Shown in pieces: positions 1,670 to 62,569 of a stretch of DNA of 64,000 bases. Numbering within the stretch: the stretch's first letter is position 1; each line of letters starts with the position of its first letter. The notes beneath the pieces were generated by a model. That model saw only the letters and a list, made by a program, of their open reading frames with translations, was not told the DNA's origin and ran no database searches. The stretch spans positions 14,742,148-14,806,147 of the forward strand of contig CM061914.1 in NCBI GenBank assembly GCA_031002005.1, in the 5' to 3' direction. The stretch is from Vandiemenella viatica (lineage: Eukaryota; Arthropoda; Insecta; Orthoptera; Morabidae). The translations under genes were made by a program, and so were the position numbers.

Positions 1670-4552
1670 TGAAAGGACAAAGGTGGGTCCAAGGGAAGAA
1701 AGAATTCTTAGGTTACTGGTAGATAGTGAACCAGGCTTAACCGAAGGAACAGTGTATAAAACAGAACTAGTACCAAATATTTATATACCAGATGCTCTTG
1801 TAAGTATAGAGAATGGATCTTGACTAATTAGCGTAACTAATACTTCAGAAAATGAGGTTACACTTGAGGGTGCTAAAATTAAAGTTGAAACAGTCCCAGA
1901 AGGTACAACAGTGGACACATACAAAGTAAGAACAATGAAACAAAAATCACAGTTACAGTTTGATTCAAGGGTTAAAGAACTTAAGAAGCAATTGCGAACA
2001 GAGCATTTAAATCCGGAAGAAAAATCCGAGTTGTTTAAAATTTGTGCAGAGTTTAATGATATATTTTTTCTGCCAGGAGATAAACTTACACATACAGACA
2101 TCATAAAACATGAGATACCTATAGTACCGGAAGCACAAGGGAGAATTATCAATACAAGGCCATACCGAATACCAGAAGCGCGGCGGGTGATCTTGCAAGA
2201 ACAAATAAACAAAATGTTAGATGATGATATAATAGTACCGAGTAAAAGTGCTTGGAATTCACCATTGTTACTTATACCCAAGAAACTAGACGCTAGTGGG
2301 AAACAAAAATGGAGAGTTGTCGTAGACTATAGGAAATTAAATGAGATTACAGTAGGAGATGCATTTCCTCTTCCTAACATTTCGGATATTCTAGATCGTC
2401 TAGGCAAAGCTAAATATTTCTCAACACTCGATTTAGCTAGTGGTTATTATCAGATTCTTATGGATGAGAAAGACAGGGAGAAAACCGCCTTTAGCTCAAA
2501 TTTCAATCATTACGAATACAGAAGAATGCCTATGGGATTAAAGGGAGCGCCAGGATGTTTCCAGAGGCTGATGAATAGTATATTAACAGGTTTGCAAGGT
2601 ATCAAATGCTTATATATCTTGACGATGTAATAGTTTTCGTAACAACATTGAAGGAACACAATGAGAGACTTACCGAAATTTTCCAAAGGTTAAGGGAAAA
2701 CAATTTGAAACTTCAATTGGATAAGTGCGAGTTTCTTAGGACGCAGGTTGCGTACTTAGGACACATAATCACAGATGAGGGTATAAAACCGGATCCAGTT
2801 AAAGTCGAGAAAGTGAAGAATTTTCCACAGCCAAAGTCTACGAAGGAGCTTAAGGGATTTCTGGGGTTATCAGGATATTACCGACGTTTCATGCCTAATT
2901 ACAGTAAAATTGCAAAACCTTTACATGAATTACTAGTTAAAGGGCAAGATTATATTTGGGAAGAATCCCAGGAAAAGGCTTTTCAGGAATTAAAGGATTT
3001 ATTAATCAATCCTCCATTACTGCAATATCCAGATTTTGGATCTCCGTTCATAGTTACCACAGACGCAAGTAAATTTGCAATTGGAGCTGTGTTATCGCAA
3101 GGTAAATCAATTGGAAAAGATTTGCCAATTGCATACGCATCTAGAACATTAAACAAAGCAGAACAGAATTACTCAACTACGGAAAAAGAATTGTTAGCAA
3201 TTGTCTGGGCAGTTAAACAATTTAGACCATACGTTTATGGTAGAAAATTCACTATTGTAACAGATCATCAGCCCCTTACGTGGATATTCAGTGTTAAAGA
3301 TCCGAGTTCTAGGTTAATAAAATGGAGACTTAAACTCGAAGAGTACGAATACACTGTGGTGTATAAACGAGGAAAGTTAAATACGAATGCCGATGCGCTA
3401 AGCCGTATACGGGAAGTTAATGTACAGAGTAAGGAGAATGAAGTAGTAGGTCAAAACTCCGATGAAAGTAAATTTAAAGAGACACCAGCTGAAATTAGTT
3501 TGGAGGAAAAAGAGCAGATTTTAAAGGAGAGTCATGACGTGCCTTTAGGTGGTCATCAGGGAATGACAAGGACGTACGAGAAGGTGAAAGAGTATAAGCA
3601 ATGGCCGGGAATGAAACGAGACATTGAAAATTATATCAGACGCTGTGAGACTTGTCAAAAGAATAAGATTACACAGAACAAAACCAAAATGCCGCTAGAG
3701 ATAACTCGCACACCTGAGCATGTATTTGAAAAATGTTGTATGGACATAGTCGGTCCTCTAAGTATTAGCGATAAGGGTAATAGATACATTCTAACTTTTC
3801 AAGATGAATTGTCTAAGTATACCTTAGCAGTACCAATTGAACAGCAAGATGCTGATACCGTTGCACGAAAGTTTGTGGAAGAAATAATTCTTAGGTACGG
3901 GATACCGTCTGTTCTTCTGACAGATCAGGGCTCGAATTTCATGAGTGACGTATTTAAAAGGGTGTGTAAAATCTTGAAGATTCAGAAAATCAAAACTAGT
4001 GCGTACCATCCGGAAAGTAACGGTGCTCTTGAAAGAAGTCACAGAACGTTAGTAGAATATCTCCGACATTTCATTGCTAAGGATCAAAGAAATTGGGATG
4101 ATTGGATTCAGTATTCAATTTTCGTATTCAACACAACACCTCATAGTAGTACGGGATTCACACCTCATGAACTTTTGTTTGGGAGAAAGGCAAATATTCC
4201 AGGTATATTACAAAAAGAACCTACAGAAGTTCTGTATTGTTATGATGACTATGTTAAAGAGTTAAAGAGTAAAATGCAATCGTTACATGAAATAGCTAGG
4301 GAACATCTACACAAGAGTAAGGAGACGAATAAAAAGTACTATGACAGAAATGAAAACTCAAAATTGTTTAAACCAGGTGATAAGGTTTTATTGCATGACG
4401 AGTCTGTAAGAAGAGGGCGTTCAAAGAAGTTAGATTCACAATGGATAGGGCCTTACGAAGTTCTGAAAACAGAAGGACCGAATGTTATGCTTAAAACAAA
4501 AAGAAATAAGATAGTAAAAGTACACGCAAATAGACTAAAAGAATTTTTTTAA
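1670..4552 (+). pseudogene. pol: Pol: reverse transcriptase, RNase H and integrase, one frameshift in RT
   Basis: The linker after protease has a stop near 1820. From 1911 an open frame carries the RT fingers and palm (WRVVVDYRKLN, FSTLDLASGYYQI). A frame change near 2606-2630 falls just before the catalytic YLDD motif, which lies in the second frame starting at 2606. That frame then runs 648 codons. It holds RNase H (TTDASKFAIGAVLSQ), the integrase HHCC zinc motif (about 3540-3660), the DDE core (CMDIVGPL, LTDQGSNFMS, ESNGALERSH) and a GPY-type C-terminal module (WIGPYEVL, about 4443). The long intact second frame suggests the RT frameshift is one of few lesions in pol, so decay is recent relative to other relics here. 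Confidence 0.92.
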
Positions 4553-4564
4553 TTGCAGGCCATG
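4543..4564 (+). promoter_or_regulatory. env splice acceptor and start context
   Basis: A T-run ending in AATTGCAG|GCC stands directly before an ATG at 4562 in the context GCCATGG, which is close to an ideal Kozak sequence. It overlaps the end of pol. With the donor at 196 this would create the spliced env messenger typical of errantiviruses. Confidence 0.6.
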
Positions 4565-5894
4565 GTACTCATGAAGATTGTGTTGGGACTTTTAATAATA
4601 CTAACGGGAAGTTCAGCATGGGAAGATTTCCAAGTGCAGAAGATAAGTTCTTCTCCGGGGTTATATTATGATAATTTGGGTAAGGCTAGACTGTACAGTA
4701 CCACATGGAAGGTTGTAAGTTACGTGAAACTGGAAGATATAATGAAAAAGTTCATACAGGCAGAGACCTATGCACAATTGTCGATAGAATTTTGTCGAAG
4801 TAAATTGTTCCACCTAAACATAAGTAATGAAGAATGTGTTAGAATCGAACAACACATTGATAGGCATGTAGCTAGAATAAAAGACGCACAAAGTTTAATA
4901 TCTCAGTTGACTAGACATGAAAGTAGGAAAAAGAGAGGTCTTTTCGATTTTGTCGGAGAAATCAGCAAGGTACTTTTTGGAACACTAAGTGCAGCAGACG
5001 CAACATATTTCAAATCAAAAATAGATGACATGGAGGGCAAGCAAATGCAACTATTGAAATTAACGAAGGAACAGGTAGCTGTTGTAAAAACTACTTTGAA
5101 TGGGATCAATAATACGATGTCTAGTGTCGTCCAAAATGAAAAGATACTAGCAGAAGGGATGAAAAAGATAGAGTGTTATGTTCTCGACTATGTGCAAACT
5201 AATGACGCAACAATCCAGCGTATAGCGACTCTATTAGCAATTAATGAACACTTGATCCAGCTTACTTTAATTTTCGAAGAAATTGAAAGGGATTATGAAT
5301 TAGTGATAACTGCCATTGTAAATGCACAGAAAGGAATCCTTGAGCCACACATCATAAACCCAGTTCAAATTATGAATTACTTAAAGTTGATTCGTGATGA
5401 TCTAAGAGATTTAAAATTTCCACTAACTGAGGCCTATGGATATTTATTACTTAAGCTTATTGACTTAGACGTATTTTTATCGGGAAACGTCCTTGGTTAC
5501 GTTATTCATGTACCTTTAATAGATAATAATATTTTTAATTTGTACAAGGTAATTCCATTGCCAATGGAGATAAAGACCTCACCAGGAAGTTATGTCTATA
5601 TTCAACCAGAAAAAGAATTATTGTTCATTGATGATGCTAAGAGACATTATGCTAAGTTAAATATTGATAAATTGGAGTGCAAACTATTGGATCAGGACAA
5701 TCGTATTTGTAAACAAACATTCATTTTGCTATCTACTTATGATCATGAAGAATGCAAAGCTAAGCTGTTACAACCAGTCAGAGAAATACCGACTGATTGT
5801 ATAAAGAAGGTAGTGCATTTAAATCAAAGCTTATGGACACATCTCGGGAATAATGAATGGTTGTATCTGACTCCCGGAGAAGAAGGTCTTAAGG
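4562..5894 (+). pseudogene. env: Envelope-like fusion protein, 5' part, cut by transposon insertion
   Basis: I start the gene at ATG 4562 because it sits just after the acceptor and opens with a hydrophobic signal peptide (about 20 residues). A furin-type site RKKR lies at about residues 122-125. A glycine- and phenylalanine-rich segment follows and resembles the fusion peptide of baculovirus F-like errantiviral Env proteins. A helical region comes after that. The frame is open up to the P-like transposon at 5895-5901, then runs into foreign sequence. The rest of env resumes after 10109. As it stands the product is truncated and lacks its membrane anchor. Confidence 0.85.
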
Positions 5895-5900
5895 TGGCCA
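5895..5900. repeat. Target-site duplication, left (TGGCCA)
   Basis: TGGCCA here and at 10110-10115 flank the THAP transposon. The left flank 5891-5900 and right flank 10110-10119 are reverse complements of each other, so the original site was palindromic over 14 bp. Confidence 0.75.
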
Positions 5901-6166
5901 TACACGATCGCTCCATTTGGATGTCATCCTTATGGATGACATCCATGCGGATGACGTCCAAAAGCGTAGCACATACACGATCATTCCATCACTCCACCAG
6001 TCAAAGGTGCAACGGCGCTAGTGTTCCTTCGCAAATTGAACGACGCGCCTGCCGCCATTTTGGTGGCAACTGGTAGCTTTCAGTCATTCAGTTTACGTTT
6101 GTACAGTTGATACGTGTTGTCCCGATCGAGTATTCGTATTTTTTGGCTTACCAAGTGTTTTGTACC

Positions 6167-16262: not shown

Positions 16263-16356
16263 AGGCGCGACACGCCACATCTTGTCTATTATATTATAGA
16301 TTATTGTAAGTAATGGTATACCATTGTTTTTTTAGTTAGTGTGCTGGTGTCTTGTG

Positions 16357-17100
16357 TCATAGTTGGTTGTTATTTATTTTGTTGTTGAGCTGTTCAATGA
16401 GTTTTTCTGAGTATCCATTACTGTTTGCTATTTGAATGATTGTATTATATTCTGTGGTGTAGTCTTTCTCAGATAAGGGTATCATATTTAGCCTGTTTAG
16501 CATGTGTCTGAGTGCTGCTTGTTTGTGATTGTTTGGATGGTTAGAAGTTTTGTGCATTATAGTGGCAGTGTGTGTGGGTTTTCTATATATGCTGAAGAAG
16601 TGTAATGGACCTTGTTTGGTTATTCTTATGTCAAGTACGATGAGTGAGTTGTTTGTTTCTTTCTCTAAGAAAAATTTTATGTTGCTGTAGATGTTATTAA
16701 TTTCTTCATGGAATATGGAAATATTGTGTTGTGGTTTATCTATCAAGCAAAGGACGTCGTCTACCTATCTGTGCCTGTAGAGTATGTTGTATTTTTTGTT
16801 TCTGAATATATGGTGTTCTACATGATCCATAAAAACATTTGCCATGATGCCTGAAACCGGAGAGCCCATCGGTAAACCTTCATTTTGGATATAGTATTTG
16901 TTGTTGAATTGGAAAAAATTGTGATATAACCAGATGTAGTATTTCTGTTATCTCTTTGATGTGTGTATCTGGGACTGTGTTGTGTGTGTATAGGTTGTTT
17001 TGTATAATCTTAATTGTTTCATTGACCGGGATGACAGAGAATGTATTTATGACATCAAATGATAAGAGTGTTGCTGTGTGAGGTATTGGTATCTTGTTTA
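16357..17100 (-). pseudogene. Penelope-like element reverse transcriptase fragment
   Basis: Read on the minus strand from about 17100, the sequence shows PLE RT motifs: LSFDVINTF, GLPMGSPVSGIMANVFMDHVE, then the catalytic box where the codon before VDD is a stop (R-stop-VDDVLCL). An open 129-codon stretch (16746-16357) follows with the PLE signature YRKPTHT...HKQAAL. The GIY-YIG endonuclease expected downstream is absent, so the copy is truncated. Confidence 0.75.
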
Positions 17101-17555
17101 TTTATTTATTTATTATTTTATTATTATTATTATTAACTGTGTTGTATTTTTGATGGTTCTGTCATTGTGGTATCTGTATTCATGTAGGAATTCATGCATG
17201 AATCTGCTTAGTTGGCATGTTGGTGCCTACACCACAAGAGCGAAATGCGTCTCGGGAATCAAAAAAATCACCAAAACCGCTGTTTTTGACAGAATTATTT
17301 ATAAAAGCTAAAAACTGAGTTGTGCATTTGACATTTTACTCTAGTGTGTTTACATTCAGTGGTCCTTTGGTATATTCCATATGTTCCATCAGATTCAAAC
17401 AGTAATCAAACACGATTACAATGTAAAATGTGCAACTGACCACATGTTACACGTGTTATGCTACACCGAAGTCGTGGGCTACCTCCTAATATTGTGTGCG
17501 ACTCCAGTTTCGCTGGCGATGTGCAGCAAACCGACATGACATTGACTGAAGTCAA
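17101..17555. other. No gene; short ATT-rich repeat and unassigned sequence
   Basis: A (TTTA/TTA)n microsatellite at about 17095-17135 is followed by unassigned sequence. No convincing coding or structured feature seen. Confidence 0.5.
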
Positions 17556-31411: not shown

Positions 31412-31427
31412 AACATTTCTTTTTGGT
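31412..31427. repeat. 16-bp target-site duplication, left (AACATTTCTTTTTGGT)
   Basis: Identical sequence at 34960-34975 bounds the PLE composite. Confidence 0.85.
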
Positions 31428-31519
31428 AAAGGATTTTTTTGTTTTCGCAGGCGTCATATTGATATAAATGCTTACGGGATTATCGCTGCGTTGCTATACT
31501 CCTCCTTCTTCTTTTCCTG

Positions 31520-31550
31520 ACGTTTCAACCTAGTCTTCGGTCTTCTTCAG
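31520..31550 (-). ncRNA. Hammerhead-like core, PLE terminus (minus)
   Basis: Minus strand: CTGAAGA, a GACC/GGTT stem, then GAAAC. This matches the conserved hammerhead boxes CUGANGA and GAAA with a stem II between. PLE terminal repeats are known to encode hammerheads. Stems I and III were not verified. Confidence 0.45.
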
Positions 31551-31687
31551 GGGTCGTGTGCCAAATCTGCTACAGATTGTGATCTGCTGGAGAGCGGTGT
31601 AGCTAGTTGTTTACTTATTTGTACTGTCAATTGTCTGATTATCCAGAGATGTTGTTTAGTATGTAATATCTGTGGGTCCAGAGTTAA

Positions 31688-32104
31688 TTATTTATCCAGC
31701 ACACATTTCCAACTCTGGCTAAGACCGTAACTACCATCTTTGTTGAGGTTGTTTGGATGTTTGAATATTTCAATAGCCTCTCTCACTTTTTCGGTTTTAG
31801 CTAGCACTCTTGTATTGTCCCACAATATTTCATATTCTTCCTCCATCTGGTGTTTGCCAATAGCTGATTTTGTGGGATGCCTCAGACGGGAGTAACTTTT
31901 ATGTTCACTTATCCTCACAGCTACGGCTCTTTCGGTTTCACTTATATATACCTTCCCGCAATTACAGGGTACTTCATAAATTCCACTGCTTTGTAACAGA
32001 GACCTTTGATCTTTGACTGTTCGAAGGTTTTCTTTCAATTTGTTTCCACTTCTGAATATAGGAAGAATATTCGATTTCATTAAAATTCTCCCAATTTTTT
32101 CCAA
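31688..32104 (-). pseudogene. GIY-YIG endonuclease domain of the PLE
   Basis: SGIYEVPCNCGKVYISETER gives the GIY...YIS pair; the usual YIG is here YIS. The downstream Arg (RISEHK) and a terminal helix follow, ending at WKCVLDK stop. This nuclease nicks target DNA for target-primed reverse transcription. The open stretch is 138 codons; the upstream link to RT is broken. The Gly to Ser change in the second motif could reduce activity. Confidence 0.8.
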
Positions 32105-32329
32105 GACACCTTACACATATGGCACCACAGCTTTCTGTTTCTGGTCTTCATCAAGAAAATTTTTCTTTTGCTTGGTTGACATTGCATTTAATATCATATT
32201 AAGCCCATAGTCGTAATGTCTCAGTGTCCGTTTAAGATGTTCTCGTTCGTTTATTAAATGTCCCTCGTCCGCAATTCTTTCTGCCCTGCAGAACAGCGTT
32301 TTAATCAAGGCTCATTTTTGTAATGGGTG

Positions 32330-33290
32330 ATAAAGCGTGGAGGTACCTATCCATATGTGTTGGTTTTCTGAATACCGTGTGTCCAAGCCTGCCTCCTGAC
32401 TACTTTTTCACTAAAACATCTAGGAAAGCCAGCTGACCGTTCTCTTCACGCTCCATTTTAAACATTATGTTTGTACGGATATTATTGATGTGATCGAAGA
32501 ACTGTTTCAAATCTTCTTCTCCATGGGGCCATATCACAAAAGTATTAACTACCTATCTTAGCCAAAGTGATGGTTTCTTGGTTGCAGTCTCAATGGCTTT
32601 CTTTTCAAATTTTTCCATAAACAAATCCACTATGTTGGGCGACAGAATGCTGCCCATTGGCACTCCTTCTTGTTGTTCATAAAACTCATTGTTCCACTGA
32701 AAGTAGGTAGAGGTAAGACAATGTCTGAGGACCGACCTCCATTCCACAGTGAATTCTTTATCTACGATTTCCATCACATCGTTCAGAGGTACGTTTGTGA
32801 ACAATGACGTAATGTCAAAACTTATCAATAAGTCTTTGTCAGATAAATCAATCTTCTTAATTTTTTCGGCAAAGTGCAATGAATCTTTTATATAAGTCTC
32901 TGTGCATCCCACCAGCGGATCTAATTGGAGTTTTGCTAACCCATACGTAGGTGAATTTATGGCACTCACAATAGGTGGTAGAGGTGCCTCGGCTTTGTGG
33001 CAGGCCGTAGAGGAGAGGGGAAACTGGAGTGCCACTTAGTATAGTTCGTTTCACTGTCCATTCCAAGTTCAAATGGATAAAATGTTCTTTAGTCTGTCTT
33101 ATAATTTTTGCTGTGGGGTCTTTGTCCAGTTTTTTGTATGCGTTGTCTGCCAATAATTGATGGATTTTTTCTTTGTGGTCTGACGAATCCATGATGACAG
33201 TGCAGTTTCACTTATCAGCTGGTAGAATTATAAAGTCCTGGTTTTCTCTTAACTGTAGTAGTGCAACTCTTTCTTTTACTGTGATGTTGG
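32330..33290 (-). pseudogene. PLE reverse transcriptase
   Basis: The minus strand reads ENQDFIILPADK, HQLLADNAYKKLDKDPT, FDITSLFTNVPLNDV, EGVPMGSILSP and FRKPTHMD in the standard PLE order but in several frames. At the catalytic box (about 32555) the expected YVDD is degraded to a stop followed by VVN. So the copy is inactive. Confidence 0.8.
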
Positions 33291-33335
33291 ATCTTGGAGA
33301 TTTAGCTTTCTTTAATATAACTGCTATGTCCTGTC

Positions 33336-34732
33336 TGAAATCTAATATTCTTCCTATATTCAGAAGTGGAAACAAAGTGAAAGAAAACCTTCGAACGGTC
33401 AAAGATCAAAGGTCTCCCTTACAAAGCAGTGGAATTTATGAAGTACCCTGTAATTGCGGGAAGGTATGTATAGGCGAAACTGAAAGAGCCGTAGCCTTGA
33501 GGATACGTCAACATAAGAATCACATCCGTCTTGTAAGGCCCAAATGTGCACTGGGGTTGGTGCAAAAACACATTGGATCTTAACTCTGACCGTGTGTAGC
33601 CTTGGATGTAACAGTTTTGGCTTAAATAGAATAATAAGGTCGCCACACAGATTTTAACCAGAAAACTATGAAAAGGTAAAGTTCAATAAATAGTTCAATG
33701 TCATTTAAATAACTATATTCTTCAATTTCACAAAACCAAAACTGTACAGGCAATCAGATGACTTTTCCAAAGAAATGTTTTACAAGTTCGATTAACCGGT
33801 CAAGCAAGACCACACCCGAATAGTTCAAAGAATTAAATCACTAGTTGAAGAAAGCCAGTAAAAGTTCGTCACACGCTCCCATTGTTCAAAAGTTTAGTTA
33901 ATTTAGACAATCCCGAGGCCTCAATTGGAGAATACTATTTTAACACAACATTATGGTTAACTTGAATAAAACAAGCGGAATTCTTCCAAAATAAAACTTT
34001 CACTGATGTGCTAGGTATAAAACTTTCCGGCCTACTTAGCTACATGTTACCGCGCCGACTGCTTTTGTCCGACTGAGGGCGAACAACTGCACGCACGCAT
34101 CTATATCAAATAGTGCTTCTCGAAGATTCCTAGCGACTGTTCTCACGCGAAGCGTGGGAACGTATTCACTTCCTCTTTCACAGGGGTGGCTGATCAGATC
34201 TGAAATCACATGTCTGAAGTCCTCACATTATCTAATCTGACCTTGACAATAAAAATAATTCAATCTTTCTGAAAAATATCGTAACTTTAATCATTTAGCC
34301 GAAAGTAAATACTTTAAGTATGAACTTTCCCTCTCCAGGCGAATGCCTAAGAATGTTGAAATTGAAAAATATTGAAAATACTATCTTAGAAACTGTAAAT
34401 CTGCTTTTTAATTTGAATAAACATAAAAACTAACTTTGAAAATGAAATGCAATAATATTCTATCCGATCTAACTCGTGGTTCTGAGAACAAAATTTTGTC
34501 ACGCAGTTACAAAATTTAACAGATAGCTTACAGTCTGAGGCATCCCACGAAATCAGCTATTGCTGAACACCAGATGCAGGAAGAAAATGAAATATTGTGG
34601 GACAATACAAGAGTGCTAGCTAAAACCGAAAAAGTGAGAGAGGTTATTGAAATATTCAAACATCCAAACAACCTCAACAAAGATGGTAGTTACGGTCTTA
34701 GCCAGAGTTGGAAATGTGTGCTGGATAAATAA
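33336..34732 (+). pseudogene. Second, inverted PLE endonuclease copy, split by a solo LTR
   Basis: The plus strand encodes SGIYEVPCNCGKVCIGETER (GIY...CIG) up to 33531. It then resumes at 34537 and ends WKCVLDK stop at about 34732. It has no RT upstream; it is only the terminal repeat of the composite. Confidence 0.8.
33532..34532. mobile_element. Solo LTR, 1001 bp, TSD GTCT
   Basis: Starts TGTAAGG and ends CTTACA, the 5'-TG...CA-3' ends of an LTR with a 6-bp inverted terminus. GTCT at 33528-33531 is repeated at 34533-34536. The uninterrupted PLE copy (31880-31910, reverse strand) shows the empty site, which confirms both borders. A 4-bp TSD is typical of Gypsy-type integrases. There is no coding capacity. 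Confidence 0.9.
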
Positions 34733-34869
34733 TTAACTCTGGACCCATAGATATTACATAGTAAACAACATCTCTGGATAATCAGACAATCGAAAGTACA
34801 AATAAGTAAACAACTAGTCACGCCGGTTTCCAGCAAATCACAATCTGTAGCAGATTCGGCACGTGAGCG

Positions 34870-34901
34870 CTGAAGAAGACCCAAGACTAGGTTGAAACGT
34901 C
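34870..34901 (+). ncRNA. Hammerhead-like core, PLE terminus (plus)
   Basis: CTGAAGA at 34870, stem of GACC with GGTT, GAAAC at 34894-34898. It is the mirror of the copy at 31520-31550. Confidence 0.45.
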
Positions 34902-34975
34902 AGGAAAAGAAGAAGAAGGAGTATTGCAACGCAGCGATAATCCTGTAAGCATTTATATTAACATTTCTTTTTGGT

Positions 34976-36851: not shown

Positions 36852-36863
36852 ACTTTTTACAAT

Positions 36864-37123
36864 GCAGTGAATTCTTCACGGGAGTGCAGCCGGATAGTGT
36901 CATAAAATGACGACGTTTCGATAATATGCTCGGTTGTCTTCATCAGGTCTATTTCAGATATTATTGCTTGAAACCACAAAACAGTGAAGCAATATTATCT
37001 GAAATAGACCTGATGAAGACAACCGAGCAGGTTGTTGAAACATCGTCAATTTACGACACTATCCGGCTGAACTCCTGTAAAGAATTCACTGCATCAATAC
37101 GCCGGGAAAGTCTCCACTCTCAT
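36864..37123 (+). mobile_element. Palindromic mini-retroelement 1 with hammerhead-like arms
   Basis: ACTTTTTACAAT (36852-36863) is repeated at 37124-37135. The insert is an inverted repeat (to 37093) whose arms carry a hammerhead-like core. It is followed by the unpaired 3' module CAATACGCCGGGAAAGTCT...ACTCTCAT. Two shorter relatives are at 60869 and 62463. Confidence 0.8.
37010..37041 (+). ncRNA. Hammerhead-like core in mini-element arm
   Basis: CTGATGA at 37010-37016, stem GACAACC with GGTTGTT around loop GAGCA, then GAAAC at 37037-37041. The opposite arm (minus, about 36944-36908) has CTGATGA and GAAAC with a decayed stem II. Stem I was not convincing. Confidence 0.5.
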
Positions 37124-37135
37124 ACTTTTTACAAT

Positions 37136-39997: not shown

Positions 39998-40524
39998 ATT
40001 AATAAATAAATTACGCCAAAGCAATTGACTTTTTTGTATTTATTGGTCTCCCATACATGTTTCACTTCTTTTGCAGAAGCATCTTCAGCGGGTTTTTTCT
40101 ATTAATTACGTACAAAAGTTGTAAGCAGGTTGTGTTGTGTTTGGTACAGTGGAATGAATTATTATCTAACTTATAATCTACTTACATTTAGTGGTCTATT
40201 GCATTTCTTTTAGCTCCATTTTCAGCATCAGTGCTTTTGCATTTTTGGTGAGAAGTATCTTCATTATTCAGATTGACAACACTGCACTTTATTGCACTGC
40301 ACTATGTGTATTTTCTTGCGAATAGTCGTTCTGTTTTGTTTAATAAGTATCGAGTTTGTGTAGTTATGTGGTGTTGTTTTGTTTTTTCAGTCTTCCATTT
40401 ATTTGGTGTGTTTTTTTTCAAATGTTAATGATTTCAGTATTTTTTGTGGTTTTTTATGTTCTTATTTATTGTTGTTTTTCCTGTGTCCATGCATTAAAAA
40501 TAACACATAATCCAATAAGTATCA

Positions 40525-40851
40525 CAACTCAGGAATATACAGGCTAACATGCAATGAATGTGAAGCACAGTACATAGGACAAACATGCAGAAAATTCGAA
40601 CCAGATACAAGGAACATATAAGAGCTCTAAAATGTTCAACATTTGCAGAACACTTACAAGAACACAACCACCACCCAACAAACATTGACTCAGACATGCA
40701 AATACTCACCATACACAACAACAAACCACAAGTACTAAAATTCCAAGAAAACTATCATATACAAAAAGCACTAACAGAAGGAAAACAAATAATAAATGGA
40801 TACACAAACCTCACACACCCAACACTATACAAAACACTGAAACTAAAATAG
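40525..40851 (+). pseudogene. GIY-YIG endonuclease in the loop of the inverted PLE
   Basis: NSGIYRLTCNECEAQYIGQT shows an intact GIY...YIG pair at 40525-40584. A one-base frame change near 40590 shifts to the frame beginning RTRYKEHIRAL, which has the conserved Arg/Glu region and runs to the stop at 40851. The RT that normally precedes it is missing. Confidence 0.75.
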
Positions 40852-41263
40852 AAACATCGACACAGGAAAAACAACAATAAATAAGAACATAAAAAACAAC
40901 AAAAAATACTGAAAAAATTTACATTAAAAAAATGCCAAATAAATGGAAGACCGAAAAAACAAAACAACAACACATAACTACACAAACTCGATACTTAGTA
41001 AACAAAACAGAACGACCATTCGCAAGAAAATACACATAGTGCAGTGCAATAAAGTGCAGTGTTGTGAATCTTATTAATGAAGACACTTCTCACCAAAAAT
41101 GCAAAAGCACTGATGCTGAGAATGGAGCTAAAAGAAATGCAGTTGACCACTATATGTAAGTAGATTATAAGTTAGATAATAATTCGTTCCACTGTACCAA
41201 ACACAACACAACCTGCTTACAACTTTTGTACGTAATTAACAGAAAAAAGAAAAAAAAACAACG

Positions 41264-41293
41264 CTGAAGATGCTTCTGCAAAAGAAGTGAAAC
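41264..41293 (+). ncRNA. Hammerhead-like core, inverted PLE arm
   Basis: CTGAAGA, stem GCTTC with GAAGT, GAAAC, followed by GCGTAC. The copy in the other arm is at 40059-40088 on the minus strand. Confidence 0.5.
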
Positions 41294-41575
41294 GCGTACG
41301 GGAGACCAATAAATACGAAAAAGTCAACATAGTTGGCGTAATTTATTTATTAATTTATTTACAGTGTTGAATAAGAGAAGAATCACTAAAAATGGGTGAC
41401 AATAGAACTACACAGAAATTAATGGATATGGAGTAATTTAGAAAACCTATGTCTTCAGCAGAAAATTTAGTTGATTTTGTATTCAAGTGTTGATAAAGAG
41501 TTCTTATTACATTATTTAATTTGCTGATAAAACTATTGATAATTTTGTTGAATTAATGGGCTTAAGGGGACACAG

Positions 41576-51328: not shown

Positions 51329-54300
51329 CTAGGCCGATCTGCCAAAAATTTTTGGGACAAGACCGGCCAAGCAACAAAATTTTAAAACCTTAGCCACGTT
51401 GCCACGATCATCGCTTAAAATAAGTGACAGATCGTTGGCTAAGCCAACGTCTGCCCTTAGATCTAAAAACAATACACATTCGGTTAAAATGTGGCGTACC
51501 GTCAAAGGTACGCCACAAGCATCACACTCCGGAGGGTCCTCTCGGCGGAGAAGAAAGCTGTGTGTCAGAGGACAGTGCCCTATTCGGAGACGAGTAAGGA
51601 GAACCTCATCCCTCCTCGCCCGCTGGAAGGAGCTGCTCCACGGCTGAACGGTCGGTTTGACCAGCCGGAGCTTATTATGCTCAACCTCCAGCCACTGCCT
51701 CTGCCAGATGTCAAAAACAAATCTTTTCCCCGCCGAGGCAAGGTCAGACTTTGGGACCGGATCAAAGTCAACTCTGACCTTGTTGCAGGCTAACTTGGCA
51801 GCTTCATCAGCTGCCTCGTTCCCCCTGATTCCCACATGACCAGGTACCCAGCAGAATACGACCTTCTTTCCAGAAGTTTGGAGCGATCGGAGGGTGTCCT
51901 GTATGCCTTGGACAAGCCTATCTGCTGGGTACATGCTTCCTATAGCCTGGATGCAACTGAGGGAATCACAGCATATGATGTACTTCGTGCCGCGACTTAC
52001 TTTCATATGCTGGAGCGACTTTAACAAAGCGTAACACTCAGCAGTGTATACGCTGCAACAACTATTCAGTTTGTAATTATAAGTCGCTCGAGGGAACACA
52101 ACTGAGCAGCCAACTCCGTTAGCCTGCTTAGACCCATCCGTGTATACCGGGGTAAAATCGCGAAACTGATTTAAAACATCGCTAAAATTTCGGATAAAAA
52201 CACTGTCGGCGGTACACAGCTTGTTGTACCGCGTCAGATCTAAAACTGTTCTGGGCCTCTTTAAAAGCCAGGGAGGAGTTTTACTCCAACCCTGGTGATA
52301 AAAAGAGGGCATCTGAAAGCCATATTCCTCTAATATAGCCTTTGTACGGTAGCTGAATGGTTTAGTTGCTCTTTGACGGTTGCTATAGAGCCGTTCTAAG
52401 TTAGGATGGATAACTACGTCGTACACGGGACTGCCAGGAGTTATGGCAATATGTAAATAGTGTCGCACCATGAGGAGACGCCGGCGGATGGAAAGCGGCG
52501 GCTCGCCAGACTCAGCACAAATGCTGAGTATCGGACTGGTGCGGTATGCACCTGTGGCGAGACGAATTCCTGCATGGTGGACACTATCAAGTATACGTAG
52601 ATAACTGTCCCGTGCCGAACCGTATACAATGCAACCATACTCCAACCGCGACCGTACAAAGGCTCTATAAAACTGTAGCAGGCAGGAGCGGTCAGCGCCC
52701 CACGACCTGCCACACAGACACTTTAAAACATTAAGGGCTTTCATGGCTCTGACTTTGACATCTTTAAGATGTGGCAGCCATGTAAGCCTACTGTCGAAAA
52801 TGAGGCCCAGAAATCGAACAGTTTCACTAAAACCTAAAACGGTGTTCCTCAAGGTGAGATGAGGTTCTGCTAAAAGACTTCTACTGCGGCTAAAAAGTAC
52901 ACACCGAGTTTTCTCAGCAGAGAAACGAAAGCCGGTGTGTACTGACCATTCATCCAGCCTGTTCAGCGTGAGCTGCAGCTGCCGCTCCGCGCTTATCAGG
53001 CTAGCTGATGCAATAAAAATTAAAAAGTCGTCAACGTATAAGGAGTACCGGACGGGCCTCCTTATAACAGTTGAGATGCTATTTATGGCAATAACAAAAA
53101 GGGTCACACTTAAAACTGAACCTTGAGGAACACCGTTTTCCTGGATAAAAAGGTCGGACACTTCTCTACCGACTCGGTACCGGAAGCAACGTCGAGATAA
53201 AAATGATTTTAAAAAACGGGGTAGATTTCCCCTAAATCCCCATTCATATAACTGTTTTAAAATAACGTGCCGCCAGGTAGTGTCGTAAGCCTTTTCTATG
53301 TCGAAAAATATACCCACAAGATGTTGGCTGCGGATGAAGGCATCTTGAATGGCCGCTTCCAGTAGGATCAGGTTATCCGTGGTGGAACGGAACTTCCTGA
53401 ATCCACACTGAAAACGGCTCAACAGTTTACGGGACTCAAGACACCAGACGAGGCGACGGTTCACCATCCGCTCTAGTGTCTTCCCGACGCAGCTCGTTAG
53501 GGCAATGCTACGGTAGCTACCTGGCAACAACTTGTCTTTACCTGGTTTTAAAATTGGGATCATCGTTGCTTCCTTCCACGAGTCGGGGAAGTGTCCTCCG
53601 GTCCAAATTTCATTAAAAATACCCAGCAGGTACTCTTTAGCATCTTTGTTAAGATGCCTCAGCATCTGGTACTGGATCAGGTCAGGCCCTGGCGCAGTGT
53701 CTTTGGCGTTGTTAAGAGCCGACTCCAGCTCCCAAACTGAAAATGGGGTATTGTAGTCCCGTAATTCCGACGAGTCGAAGTTAAAGACTTGCCTTTCGGC
53801 AGATGTTCTACGTTGCTGGACCTGTTGGTCCAATCCAGCAGACGAAGTGATGGCAGCGAAATACTCTGCCATCAGCTGCGCGATGCTTCGCTCGTCGGTG
53901 ACTACACGCCCCTGATCCAGTAATCCAGATACTGGCGATCGAGAGTACCTACCGGATATACGGCGGATTGACTCCCATACTTTTGTTTGTGGTGTGGAAC
54001 GGTTAATGGTGCTCACGAATTTCTGCCATGATCTCTTTTTGCTCTCCTTAATCACACGGCGCGCCTTAGCTCTAGCAATCCGGAACGCTGCGAGGTTGTC
54101 AGGTGTTGGGTGCAACCTAAACCGGCGCATGGCCCGTCTCCGGCCCTGAATAGCGGAACGACATTCATCGCTCCACCAAGGGACAGGCGTTCTGCGCTGC
54201 GCCCCGGAACTGCTAGGCATGGATATATCGGCCGCCCGATGAACTACTTCTGTGAAGTGTTTCACCTTGTCATCGGTGGTCTGGCGATGTTGGAGTATGA

Positions 54301-55021
54301 CTGACCGGCTATAAAGTTGCCAGTCAGCTCTGCCGATATTCCATTTCCGTGTGTTCCTTGTTTCGCTCCGTTCGGACTCTAAATGTAACCAAATTGGGAA
54401 GTGGTCGCTTCCATGGAGGTCACGATCCACCTCCCAATGCACGGAGTCGGCAATCGATGGAGAGCAAAGAGAGAGATCAATGGCAGAGGACGAACCGGAA
54501 GCAGTAGTGAAGTGTGTCATCTGATCGGTATTTAGGATGCACAGATCCTCCTGCTCCAATAATCTACAAATCTCTCGGCCTCTGGGGCAATTGGTGGTCG
54601 AACCCCACAACGCGTTGTGCGCGTTAAAGTCTCCCAATAGGAGAAAAGGCCGAGAGAGTTGCCGAGTGATGTCAGCCAGCTGACCGCAATCAACTGGTGA
54701 TCCCGGCGGCAGATATATTGAGCATACAGTCAGTTGCACCGGTCCATGCAATTTAACTGCTACTGCTTGTAAGGTAGAGGTGAGAGCTACAGGTTCGGAG
54801 TGGACAGTGTTCCGTACAAACACCGCCACTCCCCCCTTCGCTCGATCACCCTCGGTATCGTCCTTTCGGTATACATCAAAACCTCTTAGCACAGGTTGAC
54901 GCGTTGGTCTGAAGTGTGTCTCTTGGAGACAGAGACACAAGGGCTCAGACCGTGCTAAGAGTTGTAACTCCTCCTTGTGAGCCATAAAACCATTAATGTT
55001 CCATTGGAGTATGGGAGCCAT
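51329..55021 (-). CDS. LINE ORF2: endonuclease, reverse transcriptase, RNase H
   Basis: 1230 codons with no stop. AP endonuclease (residues 1 to about 215) has QWNINGF, LCLQETHF, LLLGDFNAHNALWG (about 130) and GSDHFPIW. RT has DTAPGPDLIQYQMLRHL, GSYRSIALTSCVGKTLERM, FFDIEKAYDTTW, NGVPQGSVLS and the catalytic YVDD (about 661-664). RNase H (about 955-1085) has VYTDGSK, TAECYALLKSL, CDSLSCIQAI and GHVGIRGNEAADEAA, so the D-E-D-type catalytic set appears present. A zinc-like CDACGVPLTVRHILTEC lies at about 1165-1181. It would nick target DNA and reverse transcribe its own RNA in the nucleus. It starts 2 nt after the ORF1 stop, in a different frame. It looks enzymatically competent. Confidence 0.95.
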   Translation of the reverse strand: MAPILQWNINGFMAHKEELQLLARSEPLCLCLQETHFRPTRQPVLRGFDVYRKDDTEGDRAKGGVAVFVRNTVHSEPVALTSTLQAVAVKLHGPVQLTVCSIYLPPGSPVDCGQLADITRQLSRPFLLLGDFNAHNALWGSTTNCPRGREICRLLEQEDLCILNTDQMTHFTTASGSSSAIDLSLCSPSIADSVHWEVDRDLHGSDHFPIWLHLESERSETRNTRKWNIGRADWQLYSRSVILQHRQTTDDKVKHFTEVVHRAADISMPSSSGAQRRTPVPWWSDECRSAIQGRRRAMRRFRLHPTPDNLAAFRIARAKARRVIKESKKRSWQKFVSTINRSTPQTKVWESIRRISGRYSRSPVSGLLDQGRVVTDERSIAQLMAEYFAAITSSAGLDQQVQQRRTSAERQVFNFDSSELRDYNTPFSVWELESALNNAKDTAPGPDLIQYQMLRHLNKDAKEYLLGIFNEIWTGGHFPDSWKEATMIPILKPGKDKLLPGSYRSIALTSCVGKTLERMVNRRLVWCLESRKLLSRFQCGFRKFRSTTDNLILLEAAIQDAFIRSQHLVGIFFDIEKAYDTTWRHVILKQLYEWGFRGNLPRFLKSFLSRRCFRYRVGREVSDLFIQENGVPQGSVLSVTLFVIAINSISTVIRRPVRYSLYVDDFLIFIASASLISAERQLQLTLNRLDEWSVHTGFRFSAEKTRCVLFSRSRSLLAEPHLTLRNTVLGFSETVRFLGLIFDSRLTWLPHLKDVKVRAMKALNVLKCLCGRSWGADRSCLLQFYRAFVRSRLEYGCIVYGSARDSYLRILDSVHHAGIRLATGAYRTSPILSICAESGEPPLSIRRRLLMVRHYLHIAITPGSPVYDVVIHPNLERLYSNRQRATKPFSYRTKAILEEYGFQMPSFYHQGWSKTPPWLLKRPRTVLDLTRYNKLCTADSVFIRNFSDVLNQFRDFTPVYTDGSKQANGVGCSVVFPRATYNYKLNSCCSVYTAECYALLKSLQHMKVSRGTKYIICCDSLSCIQAIGSMYPADRLVQGIQDTLRSLQTSGKKVVFCWVPGHVGIRGNEAADEAAKLACNKVRVDFDPVPKSDLASAGKRFVFDIWQRQWLEVEHNKLRLVKPTVQPWSSSFQRARRDEVLLTRLRIGHCPLTHSFLLRREDPPECDACGVPLTVRHILTECVLFLDLRADVGLANDLSLILSDDRGNVAKVLKFCCLAGLVPKIFGRSA

Positions 55022-55023
55022 CC

Positions 55024-56454
55024 TTACCTATTTAGCCTCACCCGCCCCGGATCGGGTGGGTCATCGGTCACTTCCTGCTGAGGAACGGGACCAAACTCGT
55101 CCACCAGCATCTCAGTTTCATCCTGACCAGGAACGGAGACAGACATCTCCGACCCAGAGGACTCTTCAAATTCTTCCCCATCCTTTTTCTTTTTCTTCCT
55201 CTGCCTCTTCCCCTCCTTACTGCTGGGCAGTCTGGGAGGAGACGAAGAGGGGGACTTGACAAACTGGGTCGGATCAGTCTGTCTAAACTTCCGACCACGG
55301 ATCTTCTGGTCACCTCCACTGGCGCTGGTAGCAAAAGGTATCGCTACAGCGCGTGGAGGAATGGGAGGTGGTTTTCGGTTGACTGCTACTGTCGGTGCTG
55401 GTGGAATAGTTGTTACTACTGCTGCTGGTGTGGTCGAGGTGTCAGACGTGCTGCTACCGACGTCTGCGGTCTTAGACGTAACGACCTTAGCGGATTTAGC
55501 ACCGCATTTGCATTGACATGAGCACGAAGTACTCGTGCTCATGTCTGCGAAGGACGTCTGGGTAGCAGCACTCTGCTTCCTGACGGGAGCTGAAGCCATC
55601 TTTGCAAAACTCGTCCCAAAAATTGGAGCGGCGAGCGACTTGGCCCTCTTTTTTGCTTCCCCATAGGGAATCCGCTCTTTGGTCTTCAGCTCCTGTATCT
55701 TGCGCTCTTCAAGATACACTTGACACTCCCTACTCCAGGCTGGGTGCGATCCGGAGCAGTTGACGCACACCTGTGGTAGCGTGCAACTAACGCCCGGCTC
55801 ATGTGCCCCCTTGCCACACTTGCCACAGGTGGGATTACCCTTGCATGACGCCGTCGTATGTCCGAACCGCTGACACTGAAAACAGCGCATCGGGTCCGGA
55901 ACATACGGACGGACGTTCAGGTTGATGTAGCCTGCTTTTATGTTCTTGGGTAGTACTGGAGTGTCAAACGTCAGGACGAAGGTGGCAGTCTTTTCAATAC
56001 TGCCATTAACCCTTCGTGTGATTTGACGTACCTCGACCACTTTCTGCTCCTTCCACTCCTTAACGAGTTCCTCGGTCCCCATGTCAATCAAGTCACGGCA
56101 GGTGACAACGCCTTTAGAACTATTCAGGGATTTGTGGAGTTCGCAATTGACTGCGAACTCCCCGAGCTTCTCACAGTTAAGGAGTTGGGTAGCTTGCCTA
56201 CTGGTTGTAGTTTCCAGCAGCAGCGTCCCGTTCCTCAGCTTCTTCACCGAATTCAGGGTCCCTACCAGACCCTCCAACCCCTTTGAAATGTAAAACGGTG
56301 AAACTTTTTCAAAGGTCCCTTCCATCCTTTGCATCACTATAAAAGCGTTCGGTCTCGAACAAACTTTTCTGTCACTGTTACTTTCTGAACCGGGGGGGCT
56401 ATCGACCCTCACCCGCTTCTTAGAACTGGGTGTATTGGGATTAACCTGCGGCAC
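55024..56454 (-). CDS. LINE ORF1: gag-like RNA-binding protein with CCHC knuckles
   Basis: 476 codons, uninterrupted. The N-terminal region has low complexity and a basic KKRVR stretch, which could act in nuclear import. An RRM-like or coiled region spans about residues 40-175. Three zinc knuckles lie at about 189-245: CFQCQRFGHTTASC, CGKCGKGAHEPGVSC and CVNCSGSHPAWSREC. A Pro/Ser/Thr-rich region, a basic KRQRKKKKKDGEE patch and an acidic tail follow. ORF1 of I and Jockey-group LINEs packages element RNA. Its TAA stop is followed by GG and the ORF2 ATG, suggesting stop-reinitiation coupling. Confidence 0.92.
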   Translation of the reverse strand: MPQVNPNTPSSKKRVRVDSPPGSESNSDRKVCSRPNAFIVMQRMEGTFEKVSPFYISKGLEGLVGTLNSVKKLRNGTLLLETTTSRQATQLLNCEKLGEFAVNCELHKSLNSSKGVVTCRDLIDMGTEELVKEWKEQKVVEVRQITRRVNGSIEKTATFVLTFDTPVLPKNIKAGYINLNVRPYVPDPMRCFQCQRFGHTTASCKGNPTCGKCGKGAHEPGVSCTLPQVCVNCSGSHPAWSRECQVYLEERKIQELKTKERIPYGEAKKRAKSLAAPIFGTSFAKMASAPVRKQSAATQTSFADMSTSTSCSCQCKCGAKSAKVVTSKTADVGSSTSDTSTTPAAVVTTIPPAPTVAVNRKPPPIPPRAVAIPFATSASGGDQKIRGRKFRQTDPTQFVKSPSSSPPRLPSSKEGKRQRKKKKKDGEEFEESSGSEMSVSVPGQDETEMLVDEFGPVPQQEVTDDPPDPGRVRLNR

Positions 56455-59459: not shown

Positions 59460-60858
59460 GAATGTTACGTTGGTAATGCCGGTTTTAGCAATGGCGCTGG
59501 TCGGCCATAATGCCATAAAGCCAATCTACCCATCAACCACTGCGCTCTTTAGCCGGTCTTCTCAAACTCGCCACACGAGAGATTACATGCTCACCCAATG
59601 AGATACTTCATCAAAATGTGATAAAAATGGCAGACGGGTCCCTTTATCAAACTGACCTACTGACCGAGACAAAGGTCTATCTTGAAAAAGAACCTGTTAA
59701 CTGTGTGCTACCAGAAATTCACCGAATGAAAAGCGTAATGAGACAAGTGTAGTGATGTGTTTGGTTTTGTTCTTAAAGCCTTCAGACCAGTGAAAATGAA
59801 TTTTGAAGTTTGGTTAATTTAAAAGCACATTTGAATCGGGTACTGTTATACGTCACAGGAAAAATGCTAACTCTCAAAGCCTTAAAATCTCAAGTTAATA
59901 CTATTTTTAAATCGTTCCCCAGCCTTTGCTGAGCTCAGTGGTGTAAAAATCTTTCAAATCGGTTAAGTCTATCGGAAGTTATAGAATTTCTAAATTTTAC
60001 TGTTTTCCATTGTGCAACCAAACATTTCGCTTTTTATTTAAAGCCGTTCGTGGTCTGAAACTAAATTTAGATTGGACCTTTATTTATTTTAAGCCTTTTA
60101 GAAAAGTTTTTAGCTCGTTAAACATGTTAGTTCGTGAGTTATTGAATTTTAAAAGTTCGTTGCTACTGCGCCATTAGCAGTTGGCTCTTATTTACTTATA
60201 TTTTCTATTTACTGGTTGATGGTTACCGAAAACTTAAAGAATATTGACTGGCTGGGTGTTTTACTTGGTTAAATCTACTTTTAAAGCTCTGAAACTGTTT
60301 AGATGTGGTGGAATTAAATGTTGAAATGCACTCCATGTGGAGATGCATTAAACTTCATATTCACTGCTTTAAATCGGTCTGGAGCTGCGAGTTATTAGTG
60401 AATTTAATATCAGATGGTGAAATCCTAATTAGTGAATTGCTTTACAGTGTTTAATTTAGTGGAATATCAGTGTTATGGTGGTGTAAACAAACCTGTGTTT
60501 TCTACTTCAGGATTATTATGGATTATGCTCATTTAGGTAAGTGTATGGTTTATATTTTACTTGAAACTTCTTATTTATGGTTGCTATGTGCTGTTTATTT
60601 ACTTTTCTGTACACAAAGTGTTGTTATCTTGATTTTAACTATGGCATCGTGTACTGATGTTAGCCTCAAACTTTGCCGGATTTTAACTGAATCTCGAAAA
60701 TAGAACGAAAGGTAGCTTACACATTGTAGCCCTGATGAAGTTATTTTTTGCTACCAAATATGACATCTGTTGTGCAAGCACTGGATAAAGGCATAATTAA
60801 ACATTTTAAACATTTTTATAGCTGCCTTGTAGGGCAAAATATTCCTTCAGAGAACTAA
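59460..60858. other. No gene recognised; separates the two halves of Tigger
   Basis: Repeats of GCCATAATGCC-like sequence at the left and AT-rich sequence at the right. It probably includes an insertion of unknown class, since Tigger coding stops on one side and resumes on the other. Confidence 0.4.
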
Positions 60859-60868
60859 ATACACAAAA

Positions 60869-60995
60869 CGAATTCTTCACAGGTTTGCCACAGGATGATA
60901 TTTTTAAAGGACAAGCTTGTCCTTTGAAAATATCATCCGGAGGCAAACCTGTGAAGAATTTGTGCCAAAGATACGTTGGGAAAGCCTTGTTTCTC
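60869..60995 (+). mobile_element. Palindromic mini-retroelement 2, 127 bp
   Basis: ATACACAAAA at 60859-60868 is repeated at 60996-61005. The insert is an inverted repeat centred on AAGCTT (60913-60918), with arms including AATTCTTCACAGGTTTGCC, followed by the shared 3' module AAGATACGTTGGGAAAGCC...TTTCTC. Confidence 0.8.
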
Positions 60996-61167
60996 ATACA
61001 CAAAATGAAGATTAACATCTTATAAGCTGCAAGAATGTGTAACAATGTACGGGAAAAAGTTATTAAAAAACTGTTGCCAACTGTTTTCGTAAAGCAGGTT
61101 TTAAGAAAAATGCTGATCTTACTACCATTATGGACGAAATTGTGCTTCCAGTAGCCATATGGGGAGA

Positions 61168-62446: not shown

Positions 62447-62462
62447 AACCTCTTAACATTTG

Positions 62463-62553
62463 AAATATAGTCTTCGCGGGTTTTCCGCCCTATACGGCGG
62501 AAAACCCGCGAAGACTATATTTCATCGATACGCCGTGAAAGCCTTCGTTCTCA
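62463..62553 (+). mobile_element. Palindromic mini-retroelement 3, 91 bp
   Basis: AACCTCTTAACATTTG at 62447-62462 is repeated exactly at 62554-62569. The insert has perfect arms (28 bp, counting one TSD base) around a 6-nt CTATAC loop (62490-62495), then the shared 3' module TCGATACGCCGTGAAAGCC...GTTCTCA. Confidence 0.88.
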
Positions 62554-62569
62554 AACCTCTTAACATTTG

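Follow-up and report, generated by a model that had tools for sequence, protein, structure and literature searches.

Tiny palindromic inserts in the Vandiemenella viatica genome as very short copies of Penelope-like elements, possibly primed from both target strands

What kind of element leaves inserts of only 260, 127 and 91 bp, each of them a palindrome followed by an unpaired 3′ module? Three such inserts lie in a 64,000-nucleotide stretch of Vandiemenella viatica DNA (contig CM061914.1, positions 14,742,148 to 14,806,147; hereafter the window). An earlier note on this DNA took them for a family of tiny retroelements with a 3′ module of its own, inserted by target-primed reverse transcription, made palindromic by snap-back of the new strand, and probably descended from a longer Penelope-like element (PLE). 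The coordinates that it gave, together with TSDs of 12, 10 and 16 bp, proved exact to the base (Table 1). Shared words of at least 10, 12 and 16 bp arose in 0.37%, 0.1% and 0.01%, respectively, of 20,000 random placements of flank-sized stretches of the window. An independent search recovered the inverted arms (108 nt at 90% identity, 48 nt at 92% and 32 nt at 97%); a scan for the module that tolerated up to three mismatches gave exactly three matches in the window against 0.04 expected; and the three right arms and modules aligned without gaps across their last ~60 nt. Both the palindromes with a common unpaired module and the alignability of the right arms were thereby borne out.

A diverged paralogue spans the insert 1 join without the insert (80% identity, query 76–310), at a join too diverged for base-level proof. 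Insert 2 appears to lie within a reading frame (window 60700–61160) that may resemble a pogo/Tigger-type transposase. The hairpin of insert 1 (36901–37055) drew weak Rfam matches, nine of ten to microRNA precursors and all below the gathering score, probably because this insert is a hairpin.

Table 1 Features of the inserts and of longer Penelope-like copies, in window coordinates
Feature	Position	Strand	Details
Insert 1	36864-37123		left TSD (12 bp, ACTTTTTACAAT) 36852-36863; right TSD 37124-37135; exact match
Insert 1 left arm	36864..36984	-	inverted pLTR and ORF start, without tail; spacer on inner end
Insert 1 right arm	36988..37092	+	pLTR and ORF start
Insert 1 hammerhead-like core	37010..37041	+	CTGATGA..stem II..GAAAC; mirrored at 36915-36946 on the - strand
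Insert 1 open frame	37013..37123	+	37 codons, corresponding to the first PLE ORF codons; stops at insert end (nt 111)
Insert 1 unpaired 3′ module (PLE 'tail')	37093..37123	+	31 nt
Insert 2	60869-60995		left TSD (10 bp, ATACACAAAA) 60859-60868; right TSD 60996-61005; exact match
Insert 2 left arm	60869..60915	-	
Insert 2 right arm	60916..60962	+	self-complementary centre AAG/CTT
Insert 2 tail	60963..60995	+	33 nt
Insert 3	62463-62553		left TSD (16 bp, AACCTCTTAACATTTG) 62447-62462; right TSD 62554-62569; exact match
Insert 3 left arm	62463..62492	-	
Insert 3 right arm	62493..62522	+	centre TATA
Insert 3 tail	62523..62553	+	31 nt
PLE A	31428..34959	-	decayed 3.5-kb Penelope-like insertion, same plan as the inserts
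PLE A TSD	31412-31427 / 34960-34975		16 bp, AACATTTCTTTTTGGT
PLE A 5′ inverted arm	33336-34959	+	interrupted by ~1 kb of other DNA at ~33534-34533
PLE A unpaired tail	31428-31461		34 nt
PLE A reverse transcriptase open piece	32553..33035	-	best match E 8.7e-111, 50% identity over 98% (read-through query)
PLE B (probable)	39998..41354	+	head-to-head arms ~0.5 kb, ~90% identical; different hammerhead-like core
PLE B endonuclease remnant, probable Penelope-like	~40532-40791		two weak tblastn matches, best E 2e-4

The module lies inside PLE ORFs. The right arm and module of insert 3 are identical at 61 of 61 positions to the PLE ORF starts of three loci in the same genome (L085, L086 and L087). 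The frame shared by L085 and L086 is M...IRRESLRS/HIRYLYGEEI..., where the slash marks approximately the point at which insert 3 stops, and the ORF continues beyond it. The PLE ORF of L020, a relative of insert 1, also continues beyond the module, and a direct PLE ORF lies upstream of the module in L016 and L060. In insert 1 the frame opens with an ATG within a hammerhead-like core and runs through the right arm and module to the insert end; the same frame is open across the aligned parts of inserts 2 and 3. This frame, which links the ATG of the hammerhead-like core with the arms and with the PLE ORF, replaced another reading of the module. As right arm and tail, the inserts hold the pLTR end followed by the opening ~37 ORF codons in sense orientation (only the later part of these codons in insert 3), preceded by a left arm that is an inverted copy of about the right-arm stretch minus its last ~30 nt, all between TSDs.

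A number of long PLE ORFs are open in this genome. A search with an ORF start of this kind gave 20,451 first-look candidates, and the 150 that were scored include open frames of 800–1,041 aa. The protein P0124, which has a Pfam RVT_1 match, returned 52 scored ORFs (of 55,479 candidates) when used as a query against the genome, with E values down to 7e-229 and matches mostly over residues 29–808. It is 62% identical over 783 aa to an 836-aa Anolis carolinensis protein (P0121), with the GVY..YVG motif aligned, and the L085 ORF start is 58% identical to P0121 over 65 aa. Pfam gave no GIY-YIG family match in P0124 or in the scanned stretches of PLE A and PLE B; P0124 had no match in PDB and, in NCBIfam, only weak, below-cut-off matches to other reverse transcriptases. 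A protein search with a 37-residue ORF start gave no candidates, and two exact patterns gave no matches in viral contigs. We consider it nearly certain that the parent of the tiny inserts is a PLE of the Penelope/Poseidon group; here the note's suspicion was right, given a module that lies inside the PLE ORFs of L020 and L085–L087. Its tiny retroelement family with a separate 3′ module is ruled out by PLE ORFs that run through the module, which is coding sequence of at least three PLE families.

The best comparison is with PAc, the Poseidon element of Anolis carolinensis. As given in excerpts of PMC11167929, its ORF starts at stem II of a hammerhead, its reverse transcription has an internal start at ORF nt 111–118, and a genomic 'tail' of 30–40 bp lies between two RT start sites. 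The first 78 residues of P0121 differ at one position from the PAc ORF start printed there. Insert 3 agrees with the PAc ORF in 15 of 16 aligned bases, a score that 1 of 2,000 shuffles reached, and its end maps to PAc nt 116. Inserts 1 and 2 alone gave no significant match to PAc (1,746 and 164 of 2,000 shuffles as good, respectively) and were placed on it because of their gap-free alignment to insert 3. By these alignments the module corresponds to the published PLE tail, and the end of insert 3 falls inside the PAc RT start range. Inverted pLTRs, a tail of 30–40 bp and short TSDs have already been described for PLEs (PMC3846280 and PMC11167929, both in excerpt). The tails of the three inserts (31, 33 and 31 nt) and of PLE A (34 nt) have the length of this hallmark, with RT starts placed by alignment, and short variable TSDs accompany the inverted pLTR (at least 9 bp in 44 of the 51 inserts mapped below, at least 12 bp in 33). 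PAc thus resembles the inserts in an ORF that begins in a hammerhead, a tail between RT starts and a homologous ORF. It differs from them in that the available text describes its copies as tandem, describes no palindromic stubs, and reports the same start sites on both strands.

Two longer copies lie in the window itself (Table 1). The named protein matches of the PLE A reverse transcriptase come from animals, many of them arthropods. PLE B is probably Penelope-like, judging from two weak protein matches and the core pattern; we found no clear TSD around it and no Pfam match. Another Penelope-like reverse transcriptase remnant lies at window 16306–17220 on the - strand (tblastn best E 4e-32). 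Elsewhere in the genome, full-length PLE ORFs face each other head to head, the gap between their matches being as small as ~15 bp (G000:C4537:38487234-38491879 and others).

The hammerhead core pattern has nine matches in the window against 0.95 expected. The pattern, with an ORF start within the putative core, recurs in three PLE families. Stem II was present in the predicted fold of five cores; it was better than in shuffled sequences in three of the five (z -1.8 to -3.2) and no better than shuffles in the cores of PLE A and PLE B (z -0.3 and -0.9). No match to the Rfam hammerhead family reached the gathering score, and none was among the ten matches at E ≤ 10. Cores in three families (insert 1 on both strands, L059 and L082) carry the ORF ATG inside and are followed by a self-complementary ACGT or AGCT, which we take to be a possible minimal stem III; the palindrome centre of insert 2 is AAGCTT at the same place.

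Hammerhead-like cores in the pLTR, together with the size class, recall animal retrozymes, which are small, hammerhead-bearing, non-autonomous elements; PLEs have been proposed as strong candidates for moving them (PMC7229834, in excerpt). That the inserts are retrozymes is nonetheless extremely improbable. Their sequence is PLE pLTR and ORF, and the 61/61 identity to PLE ORF starts contradicts this assignment. Retrozymes are described as direct tandem repeats of a 150–450-bp non-coding unit with canonical type I hammerheads and circular RNAs, and the available text of PMC7229834 does not report PLE ORF sequence in them, whereas the copies studied here are inverted and coding.

To place the three inserts among their relatives, we searched the genome from which the window comes (3.72 Gb, 8,965 contigs). 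The families of insert 1 (F1), insert 2 (F2) and insert 3 (F3) gave 2504, 1649 and 597 first-look candidates, respectively; 40 of each were scored, and 80 loci were analysed (36 of the 40 scored for F1, 4 of 40 for F2 and all 40 for F3). Selection of loci rested on likeness to the query, and the queries for F1 and F3 are biased towards certain lengths; the last six F1 loci were chosen non-randomly, and most of them have an adjoining inverted match. Within this sample, 57 of the 80 module-bearing loci are palindromes with TSDs of 7–16 bp. A script that required arms together with a TSD no shorter than 7 bp identified 56 of them, and L037 (TSD 13 bp) was recognised by eye; seven of the 56 have TSDs of 7 or 8 bp, which may be chance. 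Six loci have arms but no adjoining TSD of at least 7 bp (L013, L014, L019, L042, L075 and L076), the module is internal to a PLE ORF in L020, and the short insert L067 has a 9-bp TSD but lacks an inverted arm. The remaining 15 have no inverted arm in the fetched DNA (0.6–1.6 kb upstream). Upstream of the module, these armless loci have a direct PLE ORF (L016, L060), an inverted one (L005, L059, L063, L070 and, weakly, L025) or neither (L004, L011, L017, L022, L023, L024, L061, L082), and some of these last eight may be plain non-palindromic copies. The least biased subset, 18 F3 loci with a 100% match to the 62-nt right arm and module, comprises 12 palindromes (TSD 10–14 bp), one short non-palindromic insert and five loci that could not be assigned. 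L028 and L029 are one duplicated locus, with a 304-nt non-PLE stretch between the arms inside a single TSD pair that resembles the captured spacers reported for rotifer Penelope elements.

The earlier note had proposed this genome search, and had regarded hits without TSDs, or the module away from palindromes, as evidence against its reading. Most loci are indeed palindromic with TSDs, but the module also occurs free of palindromes, in longer PLE ORFs, in L067 and in the eight loci with neither arm nor ORF. Since the module is the start of the PLE ORF and most related loci are palindromes with TSDs, we conclude from sequence comparison that the inserts are PLE copies of very small size, drawn from at least three families and belonging to the known inverted-pLTR kind, not to a new class of retroelement.

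We mapped 51 inserts (16 F1, 3 F2 and 32 F3) on single-arm relatives (L020; L059 with L060; L082). From the 56 palindromes identified by script we had dropped L007, L029 and L030 as duplicates of L003, L028 and L015 by TSD or flank likeness, L028 for its 304-nt foreign stretch, and L026 for a rearranged centre; L037 is outside the 51. Much of F1 is of similar size, ~250–270 bp, a size that the F1 query favours. Together with the number of copies, this could suggest an element of foldback MITE or SINE type that is copied as a palindrome, a reading that we consider very improbable. Palindrome length (78–362 bp) and centre vary among the 51, the module lies in PLE ORFs, and the last ~30 nt are unpaired, without terminal inverted repeats.

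Arm sequences also bear on this question. Arm likeness was assessed in 15 of the 16 F1 inserts (L027 omitted) and, for F3, in the 10 inserts out of 32 whose common arm measured 50 nt or more. On average, left arms are nearer to their own right arm than in shuffled pairs (P 0.0006 for F1 and 0.02 for F3), although only 4 of 15 F1 left arms and 7 of 10 F3 left arms are closer to their own right arm than to any other; at two diagnostic F1 sites the arms are concordant in 23 of 27 cases. The mean left-left distance exceeds the left-right cross distance (0.089 against 0.075 in F1, 0.029 against 0.025 in F3), and left arms form no lineage. Propagation of a master palindrome was rejected on these distances. 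A MITE or foldback DNA transposon was rejected on the unpaired 3′ ~30 nt and on TSDs of 7–16 bp rather than a fixed length. A SINE was rejected likewise: ARAGORN found no tRNA, no Rfam match reached the gathering score, and the right arm and tail of insert 3 are PLE ORF. TSDs of variable length support target-primed retro-insertion, as the note had held.

The palindrome is also, as the note had claimed, a copy of the element's own interior, but its origin by snap-back is not favoured. In that explanation a single target-primed cDNA folds back and copies itself into the left arm, and later asymmetric loss at the centre alters the spacer. Small spacers, similarity between the arms of one insert and palindromic centres would all fit, a spacer such as the 17 nt of insert 1 would suit a loop, and palindromes at inverted PLE junctions are read as self-priming in the available part of PMC3846280, albeit on an antisense template. 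However, a snap-back copy should run through the tail to the target, whereas the left arm starts ~30 nt short: in 40 of the 51 inserts its outermost base falls between -31 and -28, counted from the module end, which is the upstream edge of the tail to within 4 nt, and in 49 of 51 between -36 and -26; among the 56, none lies closer than -23. Snap-back alone lengthens only the right arm, whereas the left arm is the longer in 15 of the 51; the right arm exceeds the left by more than 3 nt in 19, and in 17 the arms agree within 3 nt (median difference 10 nt). Nine inserts have exactly equal arms and can be aligned to a parent (L071 and L073 also have equal arms but no such alignment), and in four of the nine the centre is a self-complementary overlap of 4–8 nt with no loop, against an expectation of 7–12% of positions for overlaps of at least 4 nt. 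Plain snap-back, as in the note, does not account for the left start at the tail edge, the spacer in the left arm or these loop-free centres. Asymmetric central loss from symmetric palindromes could also make either arm longer, and snap-back followed by loss at the palindrome centre is possible; as an explanation of the inserts, we consider snap-back unlikely.

Priming on both target strands would account for the same features. The target motif is dyad-symmetric, AAnA...TnTT (p 8e-6 to 0.003 per position, 44 inserts), with A at -3, -2 and the first TSD base on the left and T at the last TSD base, +2 and +3 on the right. Inner joins overlap by at least 4 nt in 11 of the 51 inserts, against 3.9% of simulated joins. 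We propose that the PLE protein would cut both target strands, mostly 12–14 bp apart, at similar AT-rich motifs, and that each cut strand would prime reverse transcription at one of two ORF start sites ~30 nt apart, from which we infer that only one cDNA would carry the tail. Both cDNAs would stop at roughly one position, probably where a single shared RNA, often a short one, has its 5′ end, and the 3′ ends of the cDNAs would then be joined, often through 2–8 nt of complementarity, to give a head-to-head palindrome. Two cDNAs on both strands are suggested by the constant left start at the tail edge, a tail confined to one arm, and cuts that are symmetric. We regard the account as a whole, in which short PLE insertions are primed on both strands and the joined cDNAs form the palindrome, as likely, and on balance we prefer two-sided priming to snap-back.

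The weakest step is the single shared RNA, for which we see the chances as about even. It is suggested by the similarity of an insert's own arms and by similar arm lengths, whose rank correlation has a rho of 0.69 for the 32 F3 inserts and of 0.75 for the 12 of the less biased subset, with no correlation in F1 (rho 0.19, n=16). This step therefore rests mainly on F3, and the length bias of the queries matters. In excerpts of PMC11167929, the PAc protein cleaves and extends both target strands in vitro, and no difference in start site was seen between top and bottom strands; the latter counts against strict use of one site per strand. According to the same source, PLE steps beyond first-strand synthesis are yet to be validated. 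More tentatively, and with odds that we put a little short of even, PLEs in general may prime both cut strands on one RNA from two starts ~30 nt apart, with the trailing RT displacing the other cDNA, and with both cDNAs stopping at the RNA 5′ end and being joined by annealing. If this is true, a single step would explain, for PLEs generally, why only one arm has a tail, why the pLTR is inverted, and why palindromes and TSDs occur, and the tiny inserts would be a record of such priming on short RNAs.

Twin priming in LINE-1 inverts an upstream stretch rather than a second copy of the same 3′ stretch, and hence gives no palindrome. LINE-1 twin-priming inversions (PMC2837659, in excerpt) share with the inserts two primers, an inverted 5′ part and TSDs. 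Closer in kind are Pen2a_Av and its relatives from Adineta vaga (PMC3846280), which are likewise PLEs with an inverted pLTR and a 3′ tail. In the available text their pLTRs flank ORF-bearing, partial or captured sequence, and solo pLTRs are mentioned, whereas the inserts consist of arms and tail only, down to ~80–90 bp, in at least dozens of copies. The available parts of PMC11167929, PMC3846280, PMC12910113, PMC7229834 and PMC8969392, a set that covers few subscription papers, contain no description of inserts made only of palindrome and tail, or of a two-cDNA reading of them. The PLE, inverted pLTR, tail, hammerhead and TSD are thus already known; what may be new is the mechanism.

Within a few hundred base pairs, palindromic stubs retain the two start points, the two stop points and the junction of a single event. 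Because each records a whole event, a stub-rich genome such as this one (57 seen, with first-look candidates mostly unscored) offers a large set of insertion footprints, and these can discriminate between two-sided priming and self-priming without an active system. They also carry a warning for annotation, since PLE stubs mimic MITEs, microRNA hairpins or new tiny retroelements while really being PLE pLTR and ORF. Retroelements of other kinds share the window: by eye, window 1911–6076 is Gypsy-like, its frames including one for reverse transcriptase/integrase and, further downstream, a third long one, and 51329–56454 on the - strand is a non-LTR retrotransposon whose two ORFs (1230 and 476 aa) look open and whose GC lies above that of its surroundings.
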